IMG/VR virus record: IMGVR_UViG_3300021437_000102
Location: 1-20,741 of that record
DNA from: a virus
Direction: 5' to 3' (one strand)
DNA: 20,741 nt
A model generated the notes under the pieces. That model worked only from the letters and a program-made list of their open reading frames with translations, was not told the DNA's origin and ran no database searches. This document shows positions 1,627 through 12,615 of the stretch, piece after piece. A program made the translations under genes and the position numbers. The stretch's first letter is position 1; the number at the start of each line of letters is the position of its first letter.

Positions 1627-1878
1627 ATGGAAGTCTCAGAATACCTCAGAACAATACTTACTCCAATGGTGAAACACCGTGACTCAATTACTATTGATGA
1701 ATCACAAGATGCAATGGGAGTACTACTGAAGGTAACCGTGCATAAAGAGGATATGGGTATAGTAATTGGCAAGTCCGGTGAAACAGCACAAGCAATACGT
1801 CATATTGTCCGTATTGTAGGCATTGCCGGTGATGCTCGCGTAAGTATCAAAATCAACGAACCTGTGAAAACAGGATAG
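1627..1878 (+). CDS. khpA-like: KhpA-like KH-domain RNA-binding protein
   Basis: An 83-residue protein that is essentially a single KH domain. The RNA-contacting GxxG loop is G48-K-S-G51 inside 'DMGIVIGKSGETAQAIRHIV', preceded by a beta strand (LLKVTVHKED) and followed by the last strand (RVSIKINEP). Length, an N-terminal helix with 'YLRTILTPMVKH', and the 'H-x-x-D-M-G-x-x-I-G-K-x-G-x-T-x-x-A-I-R' pattern all match bacterial KhpA (YlqC) proteins, which bind many RNAs and work with KhpB in Gram-positive bacteria. The gene sits between the nuclease and the chaperonin genes. It is unusual cargo for a phage. A role in protecting or remodelling phage or host RNA is inference. Family assignment is strong. 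Confidence 0.88.
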   Translation: MEVSEYLRTILTPMVKHRDSITIDESQDAMGVLLKVTVHKEDMGIVIGKSGETAQAIRHIVRIVGIAGDARVSIKINEPVKTG

Positions 1879-1906: not shown

Positions 1907-2122
1907 ATGTCAGAACAACAGAAAACACCAGAAGATCGCGCAAAAGACTTTATTCAAGAATACGGGGAACTAGTAAAGAAGCACAATATTGATTTTGCTA
2001 CCTATCCACAATGGGTACCTGATGGTCAGGGTGGTTTTAGGACTGTCATTCAAAATCAGGCAATGGATGTAACTCCTAAAGAGGAGTCAATCCCTACCCC
2101 ATTCGTAGAAGAAGAAAAGTAA
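1907..2122 (+). CDS. hypothetical acidic protein
   Basis: A 71-residue acidic protein beginning MSEQQKTPEDRAKDFIQEYG. The first half is a predicted helix, the middle carries 'ATYPQWVPDGQGGFRTVIQN' with beta-like character, and the tail is Pro/Glu-rich. No metal, membrane or catalytic motif is seen. The 28-base gap before it (1879-1906) is very A/T-rich and contains the perfect 10-bp palindrome TTAATATTAA at 1887-1896; there is no Shine-Dalgarno sequence. The stop is followed after one base by the next ATG (2124). Family not recognised; probably a member of the KH-chaperonin transcription unit. Confidence 0.6.
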   Translation: MSEQQKTPEDRAKDFIQEYGELVKKHNIDFATYPQWVPDGQGGFRTVIQNQAMDVTPKEESIPTPFVEEEK

Positions 2123-2123
2123 C

Positions 2124-2291
2124 ATGAACCTGCTAAACAAGGTATTTGATTCAGTCACTAAGAAAATAGAGGAAGAAAAAGTCCCGAAGTTTTACAGTGA
2201 AACTGACAAGCCTAAAGGCAAAGCCACTATTGTAGAAGACGAACCATTACAAGACTTGTTTAACGAAGACGAACATGATCAAGCCAGTTAA
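2124..2291 (+). CDS. hypothetical small acidic protein upstream of GroES
   Basis: A 55-residue frame starting MNLLNKVFDSVTKKIEEEK. It has a short amphipathic helix, then a Lys/Asp-rich middle, and ends in acidic residues (EDEPLQDLFNEDEHDQAS). It begins one base after the previous stop (TAA 2120-2122, ATG 2124) and its end overlaps the GroES-like gene by 17 bases (2275-2291). Tight packing on both sides is the main evidence that it is real. No known domain. Whether it contributes to the chaperonin system next to it cannot be told from sequence. Confidence 0.6.
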   Translation: MNLLNKVFDSVTKKIEEEKVPKFYSETDKPKGKATIVEDEPLQDLFNEDEHDQAS

Positions 2292-2571
2292 TGGGCATTT
2301 GCTCATCGAACCACTACCCCAGGAGTCTTTTATCGCTTCAGACAGAGAAACCTACCAAGAGATTGGTGTAGTTATTGATTATGACGCTGACTTTGATGAC
2401 GACACAGCTGTCTGGACAGGCACTACGCTTAGTAAACCACCACAGTTGATTAACAAAGGAGACAAGGTTTATTTTGACTCGTGGTTGGCTGCTAAATTTC
2501 CCAAAGACCGCGACTCATTCTATTGGCTTGTAGAATGGTCAAACGTTCGCGCCGTGGAATATGCTGAGTAA
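2275..2571 (+). CDS. groES-like: GroES-like co-chaperonin
   Basis: A 98-residue protein with the layout of the 10-kDa chaperonin. Strand 'IKPVNGHLLIEPLP' at residues 2-15 corresponds to the N-terminal strand of GroES; 'IGVVIDYD' at 30-37 to the strand after the mobile loop; 'LINKGDKVYFDSW' at 58-70 to the 'GD-x-V-x-F' core strand; and 'WSNVRAVEYAE' at 88-98 to the C-terminal strand. Length equals the usual 95-100 residues. The mobile-loop region (about residues 16-29, QESFIASDRETYQE) lacks the classic GGIVL hydrophobic tripeptide context, so its contact with GroEL must use other residues. It lies 207 bases before the GroEL-like gene, separated by one small gene, which supports a phage chaperonin pair. 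Family assignment is by pattern, not by search. Confidence 0.82.
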   Translation: MIKPVNGHLLIEPLPQESFIASDRETYQEIGVVIDYDADFDDDTAVWTGTTLSKPPQLINKGDKVYFDSWLAAKFPKDRDSFYWLVEWSNVRAVEYAE

Positions 2572-2782
2572 GCGTTATCAAAACTCAGAATGTCGTAACA
2601 ACTACCTTCACGACTTCCGACAAATACAACAAACCAGTCAAGGCTACTTAGAACGCTGCACCAGATGTGGCAAACAGATACACTTCCCTTACAATATCTC
2701 AAACCATATTTATCTTAGTTGGCATATACGTTCTGCCTTACAACCTAATGACCCTTTATACGCTAGAGAATATAAACAATGA
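2561..2782 (+). CDS. hypothetical small zinc-ribbon-like phage protein
   Basis: A 73-residue protein wedged between the GroES-like and GroEL-like genes. It overlaps the first by 11 bases and the second by ATGA (2779-2782). It has H17, a C33-T-R-C36-G pair, an aromatic 'IHFPYN' segment, then 'YLSWHIRSALQPNDPLYAREY'. The order 'RC-x-x-CG...N-x-x-Y-x-x-x-H-x-R...LQP' recurs in small uncharacterised phage proteins. One CxxC plus nearby histidines could bind a single zinc. There is no evidence in the sequence that it takes part in folding, but its place inside the chaperonin pair means it is co-expressed with it. Confidence 0.62.
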   Translation: MLSKRYQNSECRNNYLHDFRQIQQTSQGYLERCTRCGKQIHFPYNISNHIYLSWHIRSALQPNDPLYAREYKQ

Positions 2783-4338
2783 AAGACAATTTACACTTTT
2801 CAGCCCAAGACAAACTAAAAGCAGGTATTGATAAAGTCGCCCAAGCCGTAGGTAATACTATGGGTACGGGAGGTAATAATGCCATTATTGAGGCTATTGA
2901 AGCTCCTGGCTACCTGACCACAAACGATGGGTACAGTATTGCAAATGCCGTACACCTTGCTGACCCTATTGAAAACCTAGGAAAGCAGATTCTCCTTGAG
3001 TCTATCAATCGTGCAAACAAAGCTAGTGGTGACGGCAGTAGTACAACTTGTGTCACTACAGCCGCTATCATTGAAGAAGGACTAAAATACATCAAAGACC
3101 ATCATCCTATGGATATCAAACGGTCTTTAGAGGATTGTATTCCCCTTATTGAAGAAAGCCTTGACCTTCAAACACAACACCTAGTGAAAGAAGATGGCAC
3201 ATTTGACGTAGTAAGGTTGAAACAAGTAGCTACTATTTCAGCAGAAGATGAAGAAATTGGTGCTACTATCGCTGAAATCTATAAAAAGATTGGACAAAAG
3301 GGTATTGTGTATTGGGATGTATCTAAGACAGGTAGCGATCATTACACAATTGGCTCAGGTATCACGGTAGAAGGAGCAACCTACGCTTCACCATACATGT
3401 GTGACGCTACTGAAACAGGACAGAATACTAACCAAATCCGCATTAAGAATCCGTACATTCTCCTTACTAAACAAAAGATTGCCAGCTCATCAGACTTCAA
3501 CAATATCGCTCAAAAACTGTTTGAAAAGGAGGTAAAGGACATTGTGGTATTTGCGGATGACTTTGAACCACTCATCATAAACGACTTAATTCTAACCAGA
3601 GCAAAGAAAGGTTTTAGAATTGTCCTTATAAAAATGCCTGTCCTTTTCAAAGATGTATGGTTTGAGGACTTAGCTTTAGCTACAGGCGCAAAAGTAGTAG
3701 ACGCAACCGCAGGTTTCCCCCTAAAGGACTTGTCTATAGAACATCTAGGACGTGTTGGAAATATCATCATAGACAAACAAGACACTTTCCTAGATGGTAT
3801 AAACGATGTCTCAGAGCATATTAAAGCACTAGAAGAAGACAAGACTGAAGAATCAGACTTACGAGTAGCTCGACTCAACACCAAGACCGCACGTTACTTT
3901 GTAGGTGCTCAAACAGAGTCAGCCCTATCATACCGTCGTCTTAAGGTAGAAGATGCCATTGCAGCGGCATTTCAGGCTCTTAACGGGGGTATTGTAGCTG
4001 GTGGTGGTGTGGCACTACTAAATACTACTCAAGTACTACCAATCACAATTGGTGGTAAAATCCTCTCTACAGCCCTTACAGCGCCTCTCAGGACTATCTG
4101 TAATAACAGTGGTATCGAAAATGCACCAGAGGTTGGAGGAACTATTGGTTTCAATACCAAGACAAGGGAGTTGGTGGATATGTTTGAGGAGGGAATCGTG
4201 GACCCTAAAAATGTCGTTCTCAACGCAGTGAAGAATGCAGTCAGCGTAGCGGCTACCGTGCTTACAGCCCCTACAATTGTATTGCTTCCTCGCATGGAAA
4301 TGCCGCAACAGGAACAGCAGACTCTCATTCAACGGTAA
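2779..4338 (+). CDS. groEL-like: GroEL-like group I chaperonin
   Basis: A 519-residue chaperonin subunit (E. coli GroEL has 548). Equatorial ATP-site elements are present: 'NTMGTGGNNA' at 26-35 (cf. TLGPKGRNV), TNDGYS with D50 (GroEL D52), SGDGSSTT with D85 (GroEL D87, Mg-binding), VEDAI with D392 (GroEL D398, catalytic), 'GGIVAGGGVALL' at 403-414, and IVDPKNV with D475 (GroEL D495 region). The apical domain, about 185-370, is strongly diverged, though 'YASPYMCDATETGQ' at 202-215 matches the GroEL 'YLSPYF...ETG' segment. The C-terminus ends in a Gln-rich tail and has no GGM repeat. All ATPase residues are kept, so an active ATP-driven ring is expected. With the GroES-like gene just upstream it should fold phage, and perhaps host, proteins in the cytoplasm. 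Start is fixed by the ATGA overlap. Confidence 0.95.
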   Translation: MKDNLHFSAQDKLKAGIDKVAQAVGNTMGTGGNNAIIEAIEAPGYLTTNDGYSIANAVHLADPIENLGKQILLESINRANKASGDGSSTTCVTTAAIIEEGLKYIKDHHPMDIKRSLEDCIPLIEESLDLQTQHLVKEDGTFDVVRLKQVATISAEDEEIGATIAEIYKKIGQKGIVYWDVSKTGSDHYTIGSGITVEGATYASPYMCDATETGQNTNQIRIKNPYILLTKQKIASSSDFNNIAQKLFEKEVKDIVVFADDFEPLIINDLILTRAKKGFRIVLIKMPVLFKDVWFEDLALATGAKVVDATAGFPLKDLSIEHLGRVGNIIIDKQDTFLDGINDVSEHIKALEEDKTEESDLRVARLNTKTARYFVGAQTESALSYRRLKVEDAIAAAFQALNGGIVAGGGVALLNTTQVLPITIGGKILSTALTAPLRTICNNSGIENAPEVGGTIGFNTKTRELVDMFEEGIVDPKNVVLNAVKNAVSVAATVLTAPTIVLLPRMEMPQQEQQTLIQR

Positions 4339-4339
4339 A

Positions 4340-4510
4340 ATGAAAGCCACACCATCACAGCCAGAATGTCATGGTAAAAAGAGATACACCAAAAATGAAG
4401 TTTACCGGACTAGAAAATACGTAGGCAGAGCCAGAGACAAAGATGTAAGGATTTATCAATGCCCAGACTGCCACGGGTGGCATGTCACTAAAAAAGGAAC
4501 CTATGAATAA
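4340..4510 (+). CDS. hypothetical zinc-binding microprotein (CPDCxGWH)
   Basis: A 56-residue basic protein starting one base after the chaperonin stop. It has C10-H-G-K-K-R-Y near the start and 'YQCPDCHGWHVTK' (C41, C44, H48) near the end. The pattern 'C-x-x-K-x-x-Y...Y-x-CP-x-C-x-x-WH' is common in tiny phage and bacterial proteins of unknown function and probably binds one zinc. I chose ATG 4340 rather than the in-frame ATG at 4277 because the earlier one would run 21 codons inside the chaperonin gene. The end overlaps the next gene by eight bases. Confidence 0.68.
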   Translation: MKATPSQPECHGKKRYTKNEVYRTRKYVGRARDKDVRIYQCPDCHGWHVTKKGTYE

Positions 4511-4697
4511 AAATACAGTAGATTACTTGAACTTGGTATATGACATTGACCAAAAACGTGGTCAATGTGACGAAGGATGTTATAAGTTCACTTTAGAAGA
4601 AGCAGAAAAAGCCATTGAGTTAGTCAAAGAACAACATGGTAACTTATCTCCAAAATTCCATGTTGACCATTATCACTTAGTGAAGTCCTATGAGTAG
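4503..4697 (+). CDS. hypothetical small protein
   Basis: A 64-residue protein starting MNKNTVDYLNLVYD. It has a C29-x-x-x-C33 pair (QCDEGCYKF), then an acidic helix (LEEAEKAIELVKEQHG) and a His-rich end (KFHVDHYHLVK). Start at 4503 is preferred over the in-frame ATG at 4482 because the latter lies inside the upstream gene, and the short eight-base overlap is typical here. The TAG stop overlaps the next gene by eight bases (4690-4697). Family not recognised. Confidence 0.58.
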   Translation: MNKNTVDYLNLVYDIDQKRGQCDEGCYKFTLEEAEKAIELVKEQHGNLSPKFHVDHYHLVKSYE

Positions 4698-5740: not shown

Positions 5741-5908
5741 ATGTCAGTAAATCAGATAGACGTCAACGCAGTAAACCAACGAGTAAAAAACGAAGCAGCA
5801 GTAGCTTTAGGCCGTCTAGGAGGGCTTAAAGGTGGCAAATCAACCAGTGAAGCAAAGAAACGTGCAGCTCGCCTTAATGGACTTAAAAATAAGAAAAAAA
5901 CAGCATGA
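5741..5908 (+). CDS. small GLKGGK-type basic phage protein
   Basis: A 55-residue protein. Residues 22-50 carry 'ALGRLGGLKGGKSTSEAKKR' and then 'AARLNGLKNKKK'. This Gly/Lys/Ala pattern (LGRxGGLKGGK...A) defines a widespread group of short phage and plasmid proteins without known function. The basic Gly-Lys turn followed by a basic helix suggests DNA or RNA contact. It shares an ATGA overlap with the membrane protein gene that follows (5905-5908). The frame overlapping it at 5832-6026 is a shadow. Confidence 0.62.
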   Translation: MSVNQIDVNAVNQRVKNEAAVALGRLGGLKGGKSTSEAKKRAARLNGLKNKKKTA

Positions 5909-6343: not shown

Positions 6344-6733
6344 ATGACTACTCTAAGACAGAAAAAGGTCGCTCATGAAATAGTAAATGATTTCAAAACA
6401 GGTAATGTTAGAAGTGCTGCTGAAGTGTTGGAAAGTGTGGGCTACGGCACTGGACTACAGAACTCACCAAAACGAGTATTAGAAAGTGAAGGCGTAAAAA
6501 ATGAATTTGAAAGACTTGGTTTTGATGAAGATAAAGCAAAAGAAGTAGTAGGTCAAATACTCACAAGTGAAGACGAGGAAGCAAAAGATAGATTAAAAGC
6601 AGCCGAAATGATATTTAAGGTTTTTGGTAGTTTTGCGCCAGAAAAAAGAGTTAATTTAAACATACAAGAAAAAGAAATAAGTCCAAAGGTTCAAGAATTT
6701 GCACGTAAATTGAATTATGGAATTACTGACTAA
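6344..6733 (+). CDS. terS: terminase small subunit (putative)
   Basis: A 129-residue protein directly upstream of, and overlapping by 17 bases, the large terminase gene. Residues 13-45 (FKTGNVRSAAEVLESVGYGT, then a helix ending in RVLES) follow the helix-turn-helix pattern of small terminase subunits: 'S-A-A-x-V-L-x-x-V-G-Y' then 'R-V-L-x-S-x-G-V'. The next part is acidic and helical, as in the oligomerisation region, and the end is short and charged. The role is to recognise phage DNA and feed it to the packaging motor. I chose ATG 6344 because the frame upstream to 6248 runs over the previous gene and the inverted repeat; ATG 6338 is an alternative. Confidence 0.82.
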   Translation: MTTLRQKKVAHEIVNDFKTGNVRSAAEVLESVGYGTGLQNSPKRVLESEGVKNEFERLGFDEDKAKEVVGQILTSEDEEAKDRLKAAEMIFKVFGSFAPEKRVNLNIQEKEISPKVQEFARKLNYGITD

Positions 6734-8411
6734 AGAAGAAATGATACAAGCCGCCAACTTGTATCCGTATAGTTGGACACTTCAGAATGAAATAAAGAAC
6801 GAGGTGGGTTTACCATTGGATTTTGATAAAAGACCGTGGCTTAAAGCTATATACAACGACCTAAGCCCACACCAAGCGTTCCTTAAACCTCCTCAAATTG
6901 GAGCAACCGTAATGAATACCCTTAAATCACTATGGGTAGCTAAAAACCTACGTAGACAAATCATTTATACTCTTCCCACTCAAGGAGACGTACAAGATAT
7001 GGTAGGAGGTTCTTTTAACCGTATCATTTCCCAAAACCCTATACTAATGGACTGGGTAAGAGACCACGACACTGTAGAACAAAAATCAGTAGGAGAGTCG
7101 ATGATATTCTATAGAGGTACGTTTACCTCAAAGCAGGCCATGATGATTCCATCAGGGCTTAATATTCACGATGAAGTAGACGCGTCAGATCCAAATGTTA
7201 TCGTGCAGTACGAGAACCGTCTCCAAGCTCAAGAAGATGGTGGCTGGCGGTGGTACTTTAGTCACCCTAGCCTATCAGGGCATGGTGTAGATGTATATTG
7301 GCAACAGTCAGACAAGAAAGAGTGGTATATAACTTGTTCTAAGTGTGACACAGAACAAACCCTACAGTGGCCACAGAATGTAGACATGGACCATAAACGC
7401 TTTATTTGTAGCCATTGTAAAGAGATTCTAAGTGAGGAAGATAGAGCGTATAAAGGATGCTGGAAGAACCAAGATGGTGTAGTGTGGACTGGAGAAATAG
7501 CAGGGGATTACCTATTCTCAGGCTGGCACGTAAGCCAGTTAATGCTGTACAACAAGACTGCCAAGCAGATAATAGACGCATACAATGACCCTCTAAAGGA
7601 CAAACAATACTTCTATAACTACGTACTGGGACTTCCATATGTAGACTCAGACGACCGTATTGACCCTGCGGTGGTACTGCGTAATTGTGTAGATACCGTA
7701 AACGACCAGACAGACCGTGTGGTTATTGGTGCAGATACAGGGCATGGCATTCACTTTGTGTGTATGAACAAGCAAGGTGTTTTCTACTATGAACACGCCA
7801 CGACTATCAGTGCCAGTCAAACACCGTATGACCGTGTCAAAGAACTATTGAAGCGCTGGCCTAAGTCTATAGCAGTCTTTGACCAAGGTGGTGACCTTAT
7901 TGGAGTGCGCCAGTTGCAGTCAGAGTATCCCGGCCGTGTATTCCTTTGTTTCTACAACAAAGACCGCAAGAGTATTGAACCTATTGAGTGGGGCAGTAAT
8001 GATGAATACTGGAAGGTACGAGTAGATCGTAACCGTATGATGACCCTAGTAGTAGAACAGTTACGTGATACAGGACGTATTCTACTCAATGGTACTAAAG
8101 ACGAATGGTATGACTTCGCAGCTATGTTTGGCAATATGTACCGTGAAAAGATTGTAGCTAAAGAACAAAAAGGTAAGGATGACCGTACACTCTATGGTAG
8201 TGAGTATGTATGGAAACGTAACGGACCAGACCACTTCGCACACGCTTTTCTTTACGCAATGGTGGGTATGCAGCGTTTCGGTGGCGGAGAAGCTAAGGTA
8301 GTAGGAGACAATGTATACACAGGTATGCAATCAGGACGTATCGTACAAGCACCAGTTATCAACAGTTTTGCACCTGACGCTTTTACAAAGGAGAATCAAG
8401 TGTTATTATAA
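6717..8411 (+). CDS. terL: terminase large subunit (packaging ATPase/nuclease)
   Basis: A 564-residue protein. The ATPase half has a degenerate Walker A 'LKPPQIGATVMNT' at 56-68, with Q60-I-G-A-T in place of the usual GKT, as in GpA-type terminases. It also has a motif 'YTLPTQGDVQD' at 84-94 and a Walker B-like 'GLNIHDEVDAS' at 147-157. A four-cysteine zinc site (C207, C210, C231, C234) is inserted in the middle, also typical of GpA-type enzymes. The nuclease half has an RNase H-like arrangement: 'VVIGADTGHG' with D340, 'IAVFDQGGD' with D389/D393, and 'NGPDHFAHAFLYAM' with D505. It pumps DNA into the procapsid through the portal and cuts it. Overlap with the small subunit and the downstream portal confirm the role. 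The last residues are non-conserved. Confidence 0.96.
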   Translation: MELLTKEEMIQAANLYPYSWTLQNEIKNEVGLPLDFDKRPWLKAIYNDLSPHQAFLKPPQIGATVMNTLKSLWVAKNLRRQIIYTLPTQGDVQDMVGGSFNRIISQNPILMDWVRDHDTVEQKSVGESMIFYRGTFTSKQAMMIPSGLNIHDEVDASDPNVIVQYENRLQAQEDGGWRWYFSHPSLSGHGVDVYWQQSDKKEWYITCSKCDTEQTLQWPQNVDMDHKRFICSHCKEILSEEDRAYKGCWKNQDGVVWTGEIAGDYLFSGWHVSQLMLYNKTAKQIIDAYNDPLKDKQYFYNYVLGLPYVDSDDRIDPAVVLRNCVDTVNDQTDRVVIGADTGHGIHFVCMNKQGVFYYEHATTISASQTPYDRVKELLKRWPKSIAVFDQGGDLIGVRQLQSEYPGRVFLCFYNKDRKSIEPIEWGSNDEYWKVRVDRNRMMTLVVEQLRDTGRILLNGTKDEWYDFAAMFGNMYREKIVAKEQKGKDDRTLYGSEYVWKRNGPDHFAHAFLYAMVGMQRFGGGEAKVVGDNVYTGMQSGRIVQAPVINSFAPDAFTKENQVLL

Positions 8412-8454: not shown

Positions 8455-10392
8455 ATGGCTGATGAGACTAGCCCGTTCTCACTTAACGTGAGAGGGGTAA
8501 CAGATTTGGTTGAAAACCAAACAAATAAAACACCATCAGGTGCTGGTGATTCTGTTGAAGGTGCAACGGGCGCAAAGTATGACGCCCTCAGTATTTCAAT
8601 GTCAGATGAGGAGTTGTTGAAACTACGCAATGACATAGAAGCAAAGTATGCACCATATGAAGCTAAGTTTAAGAAGTGGGCAGAACGCAACCTTGAGAGT
8701 TATTTAGGCAAGAAGAAGGACGGTCAATGGCTTACTGAAGGTGGTCCAATTGCCGCTAACCTTCAATTTGAATCAGAAGAAACCTTTCTTTCAGCTACCC
8801 TAGCCAAAAACCCAGAGCCTGTTGTATGGAGTGATAATTCAGAAGCAGGTAACGAGCTTGCTACCTCAGTTAAGACAATGCTTGCGTTCCATAGCGAACA
8901 GCTTGTCCTTAAGCGTAAGTTTGCCCTCATGGTACGCCAGTGGTCTATCTACCACTTAGGCGTTATTAAGTATGGTTGGAAGCCTGTAGACGGTGATGAT
9001 ACTAAGGGTGACGTAGAAGTAATGAACCGAAGGATTCAAAACTTTATCTTTGACCCTGAAGGGTATGTTGACGCCTATGGTGATTTTATTGGTACTCTTG
9101 GTGAACGTGTAGAAATTACCGCAGACAAGCTAATTGAAATGTTCCCTGAACACAAGGAATACATTGTTTTGCAGGTAGATGGCAAGCTAGGCACTAAGGT
9201 CACTTACACTGAATGGTGGAGTGCAGACAATACCTTTACGTTTGTAACCTTCAAAGAAAAGGTGCTAGATAAGCATAAAAATGAATACTTTAGATACCCA
9301 GAGCCAGAAGTAGATGTACTTACAGGTGAGCCAGTAATTAATGAGATGGGTGAGCCAACAATGAAGCAGCATTTAAACCATTTTGCTGCCCCTAAGAAGC
9401 CGTACACATTCTTTAGTGTATTTTCCCTACAGGAACAACCACATGATATTACAGGACTTGTAGAGCAGAACATTGCCAACCAGAAGAAGATTGCAGACCG
9501 TAGTGAACAGATTGACTATAACGTAGCAGCTTCTAATAACGGGTACGCCTACTCAGAAGATAACTTCACACAAGAAACAGCCAAGCAAGCTAGTAACGCT
9601 CGCCGTAAGGGCAATCCTATTCTTGTCCCTTCAGGTGGACCAATTGACCGTGCTATTCTTCCACTCCCAGCGCAAGACCTCCCAGCAGCTATCTTTAATG
9701 AGCTAGAAATAACCAAGAACGACTTACGTCAATCATGGGGTATTAATGGTATTGTGGCGCAAAAGCCAGACGAAGACCAGACAGCTCGTGGCATGATTAT
9801 CAACCAGTCAAACGATACGTCTCGTATTGGTGGTGGTATTGGTGATGCGCTTGAACAGGTAGCTTCAAGTACCTTTAACTGGTTAACTCAGTTGTATTAC
9901 GTCTTTTATGATGAACCACACTACGCGGCTATCATGGGTAACGCTAAGGCAGTAGAATTCATTACCCTTTCAAACCAAGACCTTAACCGTATTCTTATTG
10001 TTTCAGTATCACCTGATTCACTAAAGCCAAAAGATGAGGTAACTCAAATAAACCTAGCCCAAGCCCTATTTGATAAGGGTGCTATTGGACCAAAGACTCT
10101 TCTAAAAATGTTGGACTTCCCAGACCCAGACCAAGCAGCCGCAGATGGAGTCCTTTACAAGACTGACCCTATGGCATACATGCAATTAAACTTCCCAGAG
10201 GAATTCGCACGTATGCAACAGTCGCAGCAGATGCAAATGCAACAGCAACAAATGCAACAAATGGGCGGTGGCGCACCTCCCGAACAAATAAACGGAGAAC
10301 CACCACAGACTATCAGCCAAGACCCAGCCAGCGCAGCACTCAGTAACGTCCCCTTACCAGGTGTCCAACAATCAGGACCAGCATTAAGTTAA
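8455..10392 (+). CDS. portal protein
   Basis: A 645-residue protein in the usual place between terminase and scaffold. Residues 40-80 form an acidic helix-rich start; the middle contains the portal-like 'DITGLVEQNIANQKKIADRS' segment and a Gly-rich stretch ending in 'SNDTSRIGGGIGDALEQVAS'. This is followed by the long helical stem region with aromatic 'LTQLYYVFYDEPHY'. The last 60 residues are low-complexity: Gln/Met-rich 587-603, then Gly/Pro-rich. Length and layout fit P22-like portals that form a dodecameric ring at one capsid vertex, serving as DNA channel and connector for the tail. Which portal subfamily it belongs to cannot be told without a structure search. The leader 8412-8454 is A/T-rich with no Shine-Dalgarno sequence. 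Confidence 0.9.
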   Translation: MADETSPFSLNVRGVTDLVENQTNKTPSGAGDSVEGATGAKYDALSISMSDEELLKLRNDIEAKYAPYEAKFKKWAERNLESYLGKKKDGQWLTEGGPIAANLQFESEETFLSATLAKNPEPVVWSDNSEAGNELATSVKTMLAFHSEQLVLKRKFALMVRQWSIYHLGVIKYGWKPVDGDDTKGDVEVMNRRIQNFIFDPEGYVDAYGDFIGTLGERVEITADKLIEMFPEHKEYIVLQVDGKLGTKVTYTEWWSADNTFTFVTFKEKVLDKHKNEYFRYPEPEVDVLTGEPVINEMGEPTMKQHLNHFAAPKKPYTFFSVFSLQEQPHDITGLVEQNIANQKKIADRSEQIDYNVAASNNGYAYSEDNFTQETAKQASNARRKGNPILVPSGGPIDRAILPLPAQDLPAAIFNELEITKNDLRQSWGINGIVAQKPDEDQTARGMIINQSNDTSRIGGGIGDALEQVASSTFNWLTQLYYVFYDEPHYAAIMGNAKAVEFITLSNQDLNRILIVSVSPDSLKPKDEVTQINLAQALFDKGAIGPKTLLKMLDFPDPDQAAADGVLYKTDPMAYMQLNFPEEFARMQQSQQMQMQQQQMQQMGGGAPPEQINGEPPQTISQDPASAALSNVPLPGVQQSGPALS

Positions 10393-11583: not shown

Positions 11584-12615
11584 ATGGCACCTAATGTAAC
11601 ACTTCAGGCTACCGTAAATCAGTACCTTGCACCCTACTGGGTAGATCAGGTACTTCGAGACAACCTCTTTTTCGGTAAACTGATGACTAAGACAAAGAAG
11701 TGGGATGGTGCTCAATACCTCATCCCAATGAAGTACCAGAAGGGCGTCTCTTCAGTAGCGTTCAATGGTTACGACCTACTTCCAATCACACAGCAGCCAA
11801 CTACTGTGAACATGACTTTTTACCCAACTTTCATTGCTACCAACGTTTCATTGTCTGGTTCAGACCTTTCGGTCAACGCTACTCCAATGCAGACTTTGAA
11901 TCTCATGAAGGTAACAATGGAAAGTCGTAAGCAGGATGCTGCTGACGATGTTGGTAACTTCCTACAGGGTGACGGTACTAGCTTCGGTGGTAAGGCTCCT
12001 AACGGACTCGCTAACACTATCGACGATGGTACAGTTGCTTCAACTTACGGTGGTCTTTCACGTACTACCTACTCAGGTCTTAACGCAACTAAGACTGCTT
12101 CAGGCGGTACTATCTCACTCGTAAAGGTACGTACTCTTTGGAACGCTATTGCAGATGGTCCAGTACAGCCTGACTTCATCATTACTGATTACACCACATG
12201 GGGTTACTTCGAGCAGCTTCAGACTCCATTCCAGCGAAACACTGCTGACTTTGGTCGTGACGCAGGTCGTACTGCTTCAACTTCTGGTTACAGCGCACAA
12301 ATGTGGGATGGTATGGAAATCAGCCGTGACAAGAAGGTAACTTCTGGTAGTTTCTACATGCTCAACATGAAGGACACACTTGACTGGTACGCACTCAAGT
12401 GGTGGGAAGGAGAGCGAGTTACTCCAAAGGCTAAGGACATTCAGGGTAACATTTACGAAGACCGAACTTACGCACCTTCTGATGCATTCACATGGACTGG
12501 CATGATCAAAGCTTACAACCAGGGCACTATCAATGGATTCATGATTCTTGGTGGACAGCTCATTTGTAAGGCTCCATTCCGTAACGGTGTTCTCACAGGC
12601 ATCACAGGTGTATAA
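11584..12615 (+). CDS. major capsid protein (HK97-type fold)
   Basis: A 343-residue protein. The start 'TLQATVNQYLAPYWVDQVLR' is followed by 'FFGKLMTKTKKWDGAQYLIP'. Then comes the strand-rich 'TFYPTFIATNVSLSGSDL' (about residues 79-96), the spine helix region with 'MESRKQDAADDVGNFLQGDG', and the A-domain segments 'PDFIITDYTTWGYFEQLQTP' and 'SGSFYMLNMKDTLDWYALKW'. This is the layout of a large group of phage capsid proteins with the HK97 fold. No N-terminal delta domain is evident, consistent with a separate scaffold gene. Codon use is markedly uniform (GGT, AAC, ACT, CGT), as expected of a very highly expressed gene. The start lies after AAACTTAT, with no Shine-Dalgarno sequence. Confidence 0.92.
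   Translation: MAPNVTLQATVNQYLAPYWVDQVLRDNLFFGKLMTKTKKWDGAQYLIPMKYQKGVSSVAFNGYDLLPITQQPTTVNMTFYPTFIATNVSLSGSDLSVNATPMQTLNLMKVTMESRKQDAADDVGNFLQGDGTSFGGKAPNGLANTIDDGTVASTYGGLSRTTYSGLNATKTASGGTISLVKVRTLWNAIADGPVQPDFIITDYTTWGYFEQLQTPFQRNTADFGRDAGRTASTSGYSAQMWDGMEISRDKKVTSGSFYMLNMKDTLDWYALKWWEGERVTPKAKDIQGNIYEDRTYAPSDAFTWTGMIKAYNQGTINGFMILGGQLICKAPFRNGVLTGITGV

Follow-up and report, generated by a model that had tools for sequence, protein, structure and literature searches.

Why a phage should bring a full chaperonin although its host already has one is a question on which the locus described here bears. The stretch analysed (the window) comprises 20,741 bases of a virus record. In it, genes for a GroES-like co-chaperonin (Cpn10) and a GroEL-like chaperonin (Cpn60) shortly precede those for packaging and the head. 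A sequence-only reading of this DNA had suggested that the two are a private pair that does not mix with host subunits and folds particular phage clients. Both open reading frames are present as described, and the observation was confirmed overall; the interpretation was supported in part, as set out below.

Gene context and the three-gene cassette

Besides the chaperonin genes and a NinG-like endonuclease, the window encodes a KhpA-type RNA-binding KH-domain protein (1627..1878, plus strand), the terminase large subunit (TerL; 6717..8411, plus strand), a portal protein with a TM7 phage as its nearest match (8455..10392, plus strand) and the major capsid protein (11584..12615, plus strand), the last being a candidate client. 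A small KGG-motif protein (5741-5908) lies upstream of the terminase genes, and an annotated KGG-repeat protein is similarly placed in the TM7 phage. Relatives were collected by scanning viral contigs with Cpn60, the small protein described below, Cpn10 and terminase as queries, which led to about 26 distinct contigs; since several of these are 41-43 kb long, a genome size of about 41-43 kb is suggested for the lineage. The 23.3 kb contig L280 (IMGVR_UViG_3300022745_000144) encodes terminase, portal and capsid proteins 100% identical to those of the window and therefore probably belongs to the same phage population. Between GroEL and terminase, the close relatives L002 (5099-6343) and L003 (8088-9311) carry a gene for a ParB-like/DNA methyltransferase protein of 407-414 aa, whereas the window has small ORFs only. 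In a close sister phage, L282 (IMGVR_UViG_3300047479_000037), the terminase (2099-4654) is split by an intein-like stretch of about 272 aa with a CFIAGT start, a TGDHPI motif and a VSN/C end (Pfam Hint_2, 1.8e-8), inside which a 193-aa HNH endonuclease (3880-4461; HNH_3, 2e-14) is encoded in a different frame; the window terminase is free of this insert.

When cassette order was scored with HMMs built from the first set of relatives, Cpn10, a 73-aa protein and Cpn60 were found in this order in 25 of 25 related viral contigs spanning the region, a recurrence that argues against a chance arrangement. The earlier statement that both partners lie in one unit is thus borne out with respect to linkage, but not as direct adjacency, because the third gene (2561..2782, plus strand) always lies between them. 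In the window it shares 11 bp with the end of the Cpn10 gene and 4 bp with the beginning of the Cpn60 gene, the ATG of the latter overlapping the preceding stop codon (ATGA). The Cpn10 gene and the small gene overlap by 4-65 bp in 23 of 25 contigs, abut in one and are separated by 533 bp in another. In 22 of 26, the small gene either overlaps Cpn60 or is at most 67 bp away from it, and insertions of 176-559 bp separate them in the remaining 4. Insertions of 176-559 bp that interrupt the cassette were observed in contigs L009, L017, L043, L046 and L071. All six contigs that were selected by TerL (at least 65% identity) and have enough upstream DNA contain the cassette, which is therefore core to the lineage. 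With the patterns used, a survey of 84,980 species, each represented by one genome, yielded neither a relative nor a prophage copy of the cassette.

The 73-aa protein has the residues C11, H17, C33 and C36, invariant in 13 members, which possibly form a zinc site. Weak similarity to phrog_2670 (unknown function) was detected for 10 of 13 members (best 7.7e-5), no match exceeded the threshold in PDB, Pfam or NCBIfam, and the protein was not found in the TM7 phage, in phage MW202566 or in the phage collection. Its distances correlate with the Cpn10 distances at r=0.60 and with the Cpn60 distances at r=0.57. A role in the folding machine is hypothetical; a three-part machine in which it would act as a dedicated adaptor or regulator, for example in head-protein handover or lid gating, and in which the capsid of a Patescibacteria phage lineage would need a private chamber, is a speculative proposal to which we give rather low credence.

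The Cpn60 and its candidate lid

The Cpn60 gene (2779..4338, plus strand) encodes a full-length group I, GroEL-like chaperonin of 519 aa, identified by Pfam PF00118 (112.7 bits against a cut-off of 34.3, residues 20-501) and by a match to the PHROG 'chaperonin groEL' (2.5e-87). The thresholds of the NCBIfam GroEL models were missed (TIGR02348, 276 against 582; best PRK12849, 315 against 352), so that the protein is classed as a GroEL-type Cpn60 and not as an orthologue of bacterial GroEL. A monomer model (pLDDT 80.7) led to GroEL with a Foldseek E-value of 3.1e-36. As the earlier reading had claimed, the ATPase residues are kept: D50, D85, D392 and D475 align with E. coli D52, D87, D398 and D495, of which the first three are invariant in 26 of 26 relatives and the fourth is retained in 22 and replaced by N in 4. 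All 26 have changes at several conserved neighbours of the ATP site, with P33 replaced by T, S or A, K51 by N and T89-T90 by S-S, and all have lost the T-state salt-bridge residues (A for R197, K or R for D83); the ATPase cycle may therefore differ. The missing GGM tail was likewise confirmed, as none was found in any relative.

The apical domain (about E. coli 191-376; 3358..3888, plus strand) is only 22% identical to that of E. coli, compared with 36% and 39% for the two equatorial parts, and the resulting apical/equatorial identity ratio of 0.59 lies below the 0.70-1.16 of ten other GroELs. Within the family this ratio is 0.93, and because it is low outward and close to one inside, the domain appears to have shifted once and to be conserved now. 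The strong apical divergence reported before is thus correct as a distance to E. coli, but not as a continuing process, and the groove is altered but mostly hydrophobic: at positions 199, 203, 204, 234, 237, 259, 263 and 264, seven of eight residues are hydrophobic in the window and five to seven in the family, with L234 and V264 polar or charged in many relatives. No large insertion interrupts the alignment of the window's apical region with E. coli, so that no built-in lid is present.

The candidate lid is a very diverged Cpn10 of 98 aa (2275..2571, plus strand), assigned from family profiles and a structure model. Taken alone, the window sequence scores below the threshold of Pfam Cpn10 (14.4 bits against a cut-off of 21.1) and gave no match in PDB or the phage collection, but nine of its 12 relatives match Cpn10 (best E 4.3e-6), and in a profile-profile comparison the family aligns with 49 cellular Cpn10s, almost exclusively from Patescibacteria, with an hhalign probability of 97.4 (E 1.2e-11); in a control, the real sequences mostly outscored their own shuffles. 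The top Foldseek matches of the model (pLDDT 73.6) are all Cpn10 (probability 1.00, TM about 0.55-0.6, E 2.4e-3). Its predicted strands stop at residue 13 and resume at 29, flanking a mobile loop of residues 14-28 (2314..2358, plus strand) that is of low confidence at residues 20-24. In the profile alignment this loop is about six residues shorter than usual, with the deletion before F19-I20-A21 (2329-2337, plus strand), which falls on the alignment columns of V-L-P in canonical GIVLP loops. Nearly all family members show FIA, FMA, FVA, FIP, FLP, YLP or LLP at this site, with F-[IMVL]-[AP] as the pattern. No GGIVL motif or other anchor of the G-G-I-V-L type is present in the window Cpn10, in agreement with the sequence-only reading; judged from the aligned sequences, however, the mobile loop is altered rather than lost, with F-[IMVL]-[AP] seemingly standing in for the IVL anchor. 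It is unlike every sampled Patescibacteria Cpn10 loop; these follow the canonical pattern G-[IL]-x-[ILV], from which only GRIIL in L240 deviates slightly. Matched changes of lid loop and groove were considered as independent evidence and discarded, as the FLP, YLP and LLP loops fall mostly within one clade.

Origin, probable host and proposed use of the pair

In a tree of 74 rows, obtained by a short search, the family Cpn60s form one clade (SH-aLRT 100) on a stem of 2.88 substitutions per site; the clade lies outside bacterial and Patescibacteria GroELs, and its exact attachment, beside other long phage branches, is unreliable. Cpn10 and Cpn60 distances are correlated with r=0.54, and with 0.51 after removal of the terminase distance (Mantel p=0.0005), while the correlation of Cpn10 with terminase given Cpn60 is 0.01. 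The co-divergence that had been suggested for the pair was thus recovered, and it exceeds what TerL accounts for. This shows that the cassette moves and diverges as a single block; it fits co-evolution of lid and chamber, but linkage alone also predicts it. What is supported of the earlier interpretation is therefore a linked, co-diverging pair with its catalytic residues kept, and exclusivity toward host subunits is a point that we infer.

The host is probably a patescibacterium, one of the ultra-small bacteria, as judged from terminase, portal and capsid comparisons. MW202566 and the TM7 phage DolZOral124_53_65 are the only phage records covering most of the capsid query, and portal matches were limited to the same two; both carry a Cpn60 gene, and one of them a Cpn10 gene. 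With E-values of 1e-78 to 1e-87, the terminase profile matched five of the 380 Patescibacteria genomes scanned; the best match among 379 genomes from a different phylum was 1.8e-31. In three of those Patescibacteria contigs a KH gene (42-48% identity) precedes TerL in the same order, as it also does in relatives of the window. The cassette was not found within about 10 kb of these five TerL loci. A host lacking GroEL was rejected as the cause of the cassette: 217 of 240 Patescibacteria genomes encode their own Cpn60 and 215 of 240 their own Cpn10, with about 90% having both, so that missing host GroE is not its general cause.

We consider it probable that the phage has a working GroES-GroEL pair of its own, which would operate apart from host GroEL/ES and fold phage proteins, most plausibly those of the head; the ring, the docking, the exclusivity and the client are the parts of this proposal that we infer. 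The pair would be produced from one translationally coupled unit. Cpn60 subunits are expected to assemble into an ATP-binding and ATP-hydrolysing ring, the catalytic residues being kept, and a Cpn10 heptamer would serve as the lid, docking through its short loop with an F-I-A(P) anchor in place of I-V-L onto an apical groove that may have changed together with the loop. The chamber would then act separately from host GroEL/ES on phage proteins. Head proteins of this lineage are the most plausible client, because all three phage groups that share the capsid and portal carry Cpn60, whereas Patescibacteria loci sharing TerL only show none within about 10 kb (a small sample).

Mixed use of phage and host parts, with the phage Cpn10 also capping host GroEL and the phage Cpn60 mixing with host subunits or borrowing host parts, would mean that the pair is not private. 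Such use is conceivable given that most Patescibacteria have both host proteins, that the phage groove is still mostly hydrophobic and that T4 gp31 substitutes for host GroES (by annotation), but we regard it as unlikely: every phage member has its own Cpn60, the phage loop is six residues shorter than host loops and differs in its anchor, and mixed rings are improbable, as the identity of Cpn60 to bacterial GroEL is only about 30%. A lidless chamber, perhaps a single ring as in phiEL and OBP, with another role for the small upstream protein, is less likely still. In every contig spanning the region the Cpn10 gene is linked to Cpn60, and it co-diverges with it, whereas phiEL and OBP have no such gene and function as single rings without a co-chaperonin (PMC5934643, PMC7185714). 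Ring-ring contact segments are indeed shortened or variable in the family, in that the window lacks E. coli 462-467, 21 of 26 sequences have no E434 and A109 is replaced in nearly all, but the same sites also vary in ordinary GroELs; the model superposes best on a single-ring Hsp60 (TM 0.87), which is weak evidence. That the phage took these genes from a host only recently, or that they are passengers in decay without a particular function, is very improbable and already largely refuted, for although phages commonly acquire host genes and the KH gene is a host-like gene in the same region, the frames are open and the catalytic residues invariant across the clade down to about 50% identity, the cassette is core to the lineage, and Cpn60 is not nested in host GroELs. 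The private pair thus remains the preferred reading.

Comparison with known chaperonin systems

Phages with a lid only, with lid and chamber, and with a chamber only are known, according to a passage of PMC7185714 that cites Marine et al. 2017, and soil viral GroELs have been described as expressed and phylogenetically distinct (PMC8390657). The earlier view that a linked ES/EL pair is uncommon in such a phage did not hold, since pairs of this kind are known in phi40:1, immuto, MW202828 and MW202566. Matches to GroEL of 'Listeria', 'Enterococcus' and 'Salmonella' phages and of MT835992 were set aside as phage evidence, as they look like bacterial contamination.

With E. coli GroEL/GroES the family shares the domain layout, the ATPase aspartates and the position of the lid gene upstream of the chamber gene, and differs from it in the low overall identity of Cpn60 (about 30%), in FIA replacing IVL in a shorter loop and in the third gene in between. 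The Cellulophaga phages phi40:1 and phi38:1 (Callevirus, 72.5 kb) also encode both partners, separated by a single small gene, but their loop is G-M-T-F and their Cpn60 about 30% identical to that of the window; the small gene, tried as a homologue of the 73-aa protein, was rejected because the Cys pattern is absent. Homologous capsid and portal proteins are found in Manatee Spring phage MW202566 (39 kb), which has a Cpn10-GroEL pair upstream of terminase, and in the TM7 phage DolZOral124_53_65 (39 kb, Saccharibacteria host), which has a Cpn60. The GroEL of the former is near canonical models (528 bits, above one cut-off), whereas the Cpn60 of the latter is very diverged (23%) and its upstream 100-aa ORF is doubtfully a Cpn10; both are without the C-H-C-C gene. 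Flavobacterium phage immuto (160 kb) and Manatee Spring phage MW202828 (61 kb) have adjoining Cpn10 and GroEL genes, but with canonical-type loops (SIII, GILL) and without a third gene. T4 gp31 is likewise a phage-specific diverged co-chaperonin; it relies on host GroEL and has a canonical-type G-L-I-I loop, whereas all members of the present family encode their own Cpn60 in the same unit. The phiEL gp146 and OBP gp246 proteins share a strong divergence of the phage Cpn60, but they belong to giant phages and have no co-chaperonin, whereas a Cpn10 gene is linked to Cpn60 in the family.

New in comparison with these systems are the fixed three-gene cassette, the shortened lid loop of FIA type and the probable Patescibacteria phage lineage, which adds a concrete group to phages that are poorly known. 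In this small-genome lineage the cassette is fixed, its parts diverge together, the lid anchor is re-engineered and a third gene is conserved, so that it offers a compact natural pair for tests of specificity between lid and chamber.
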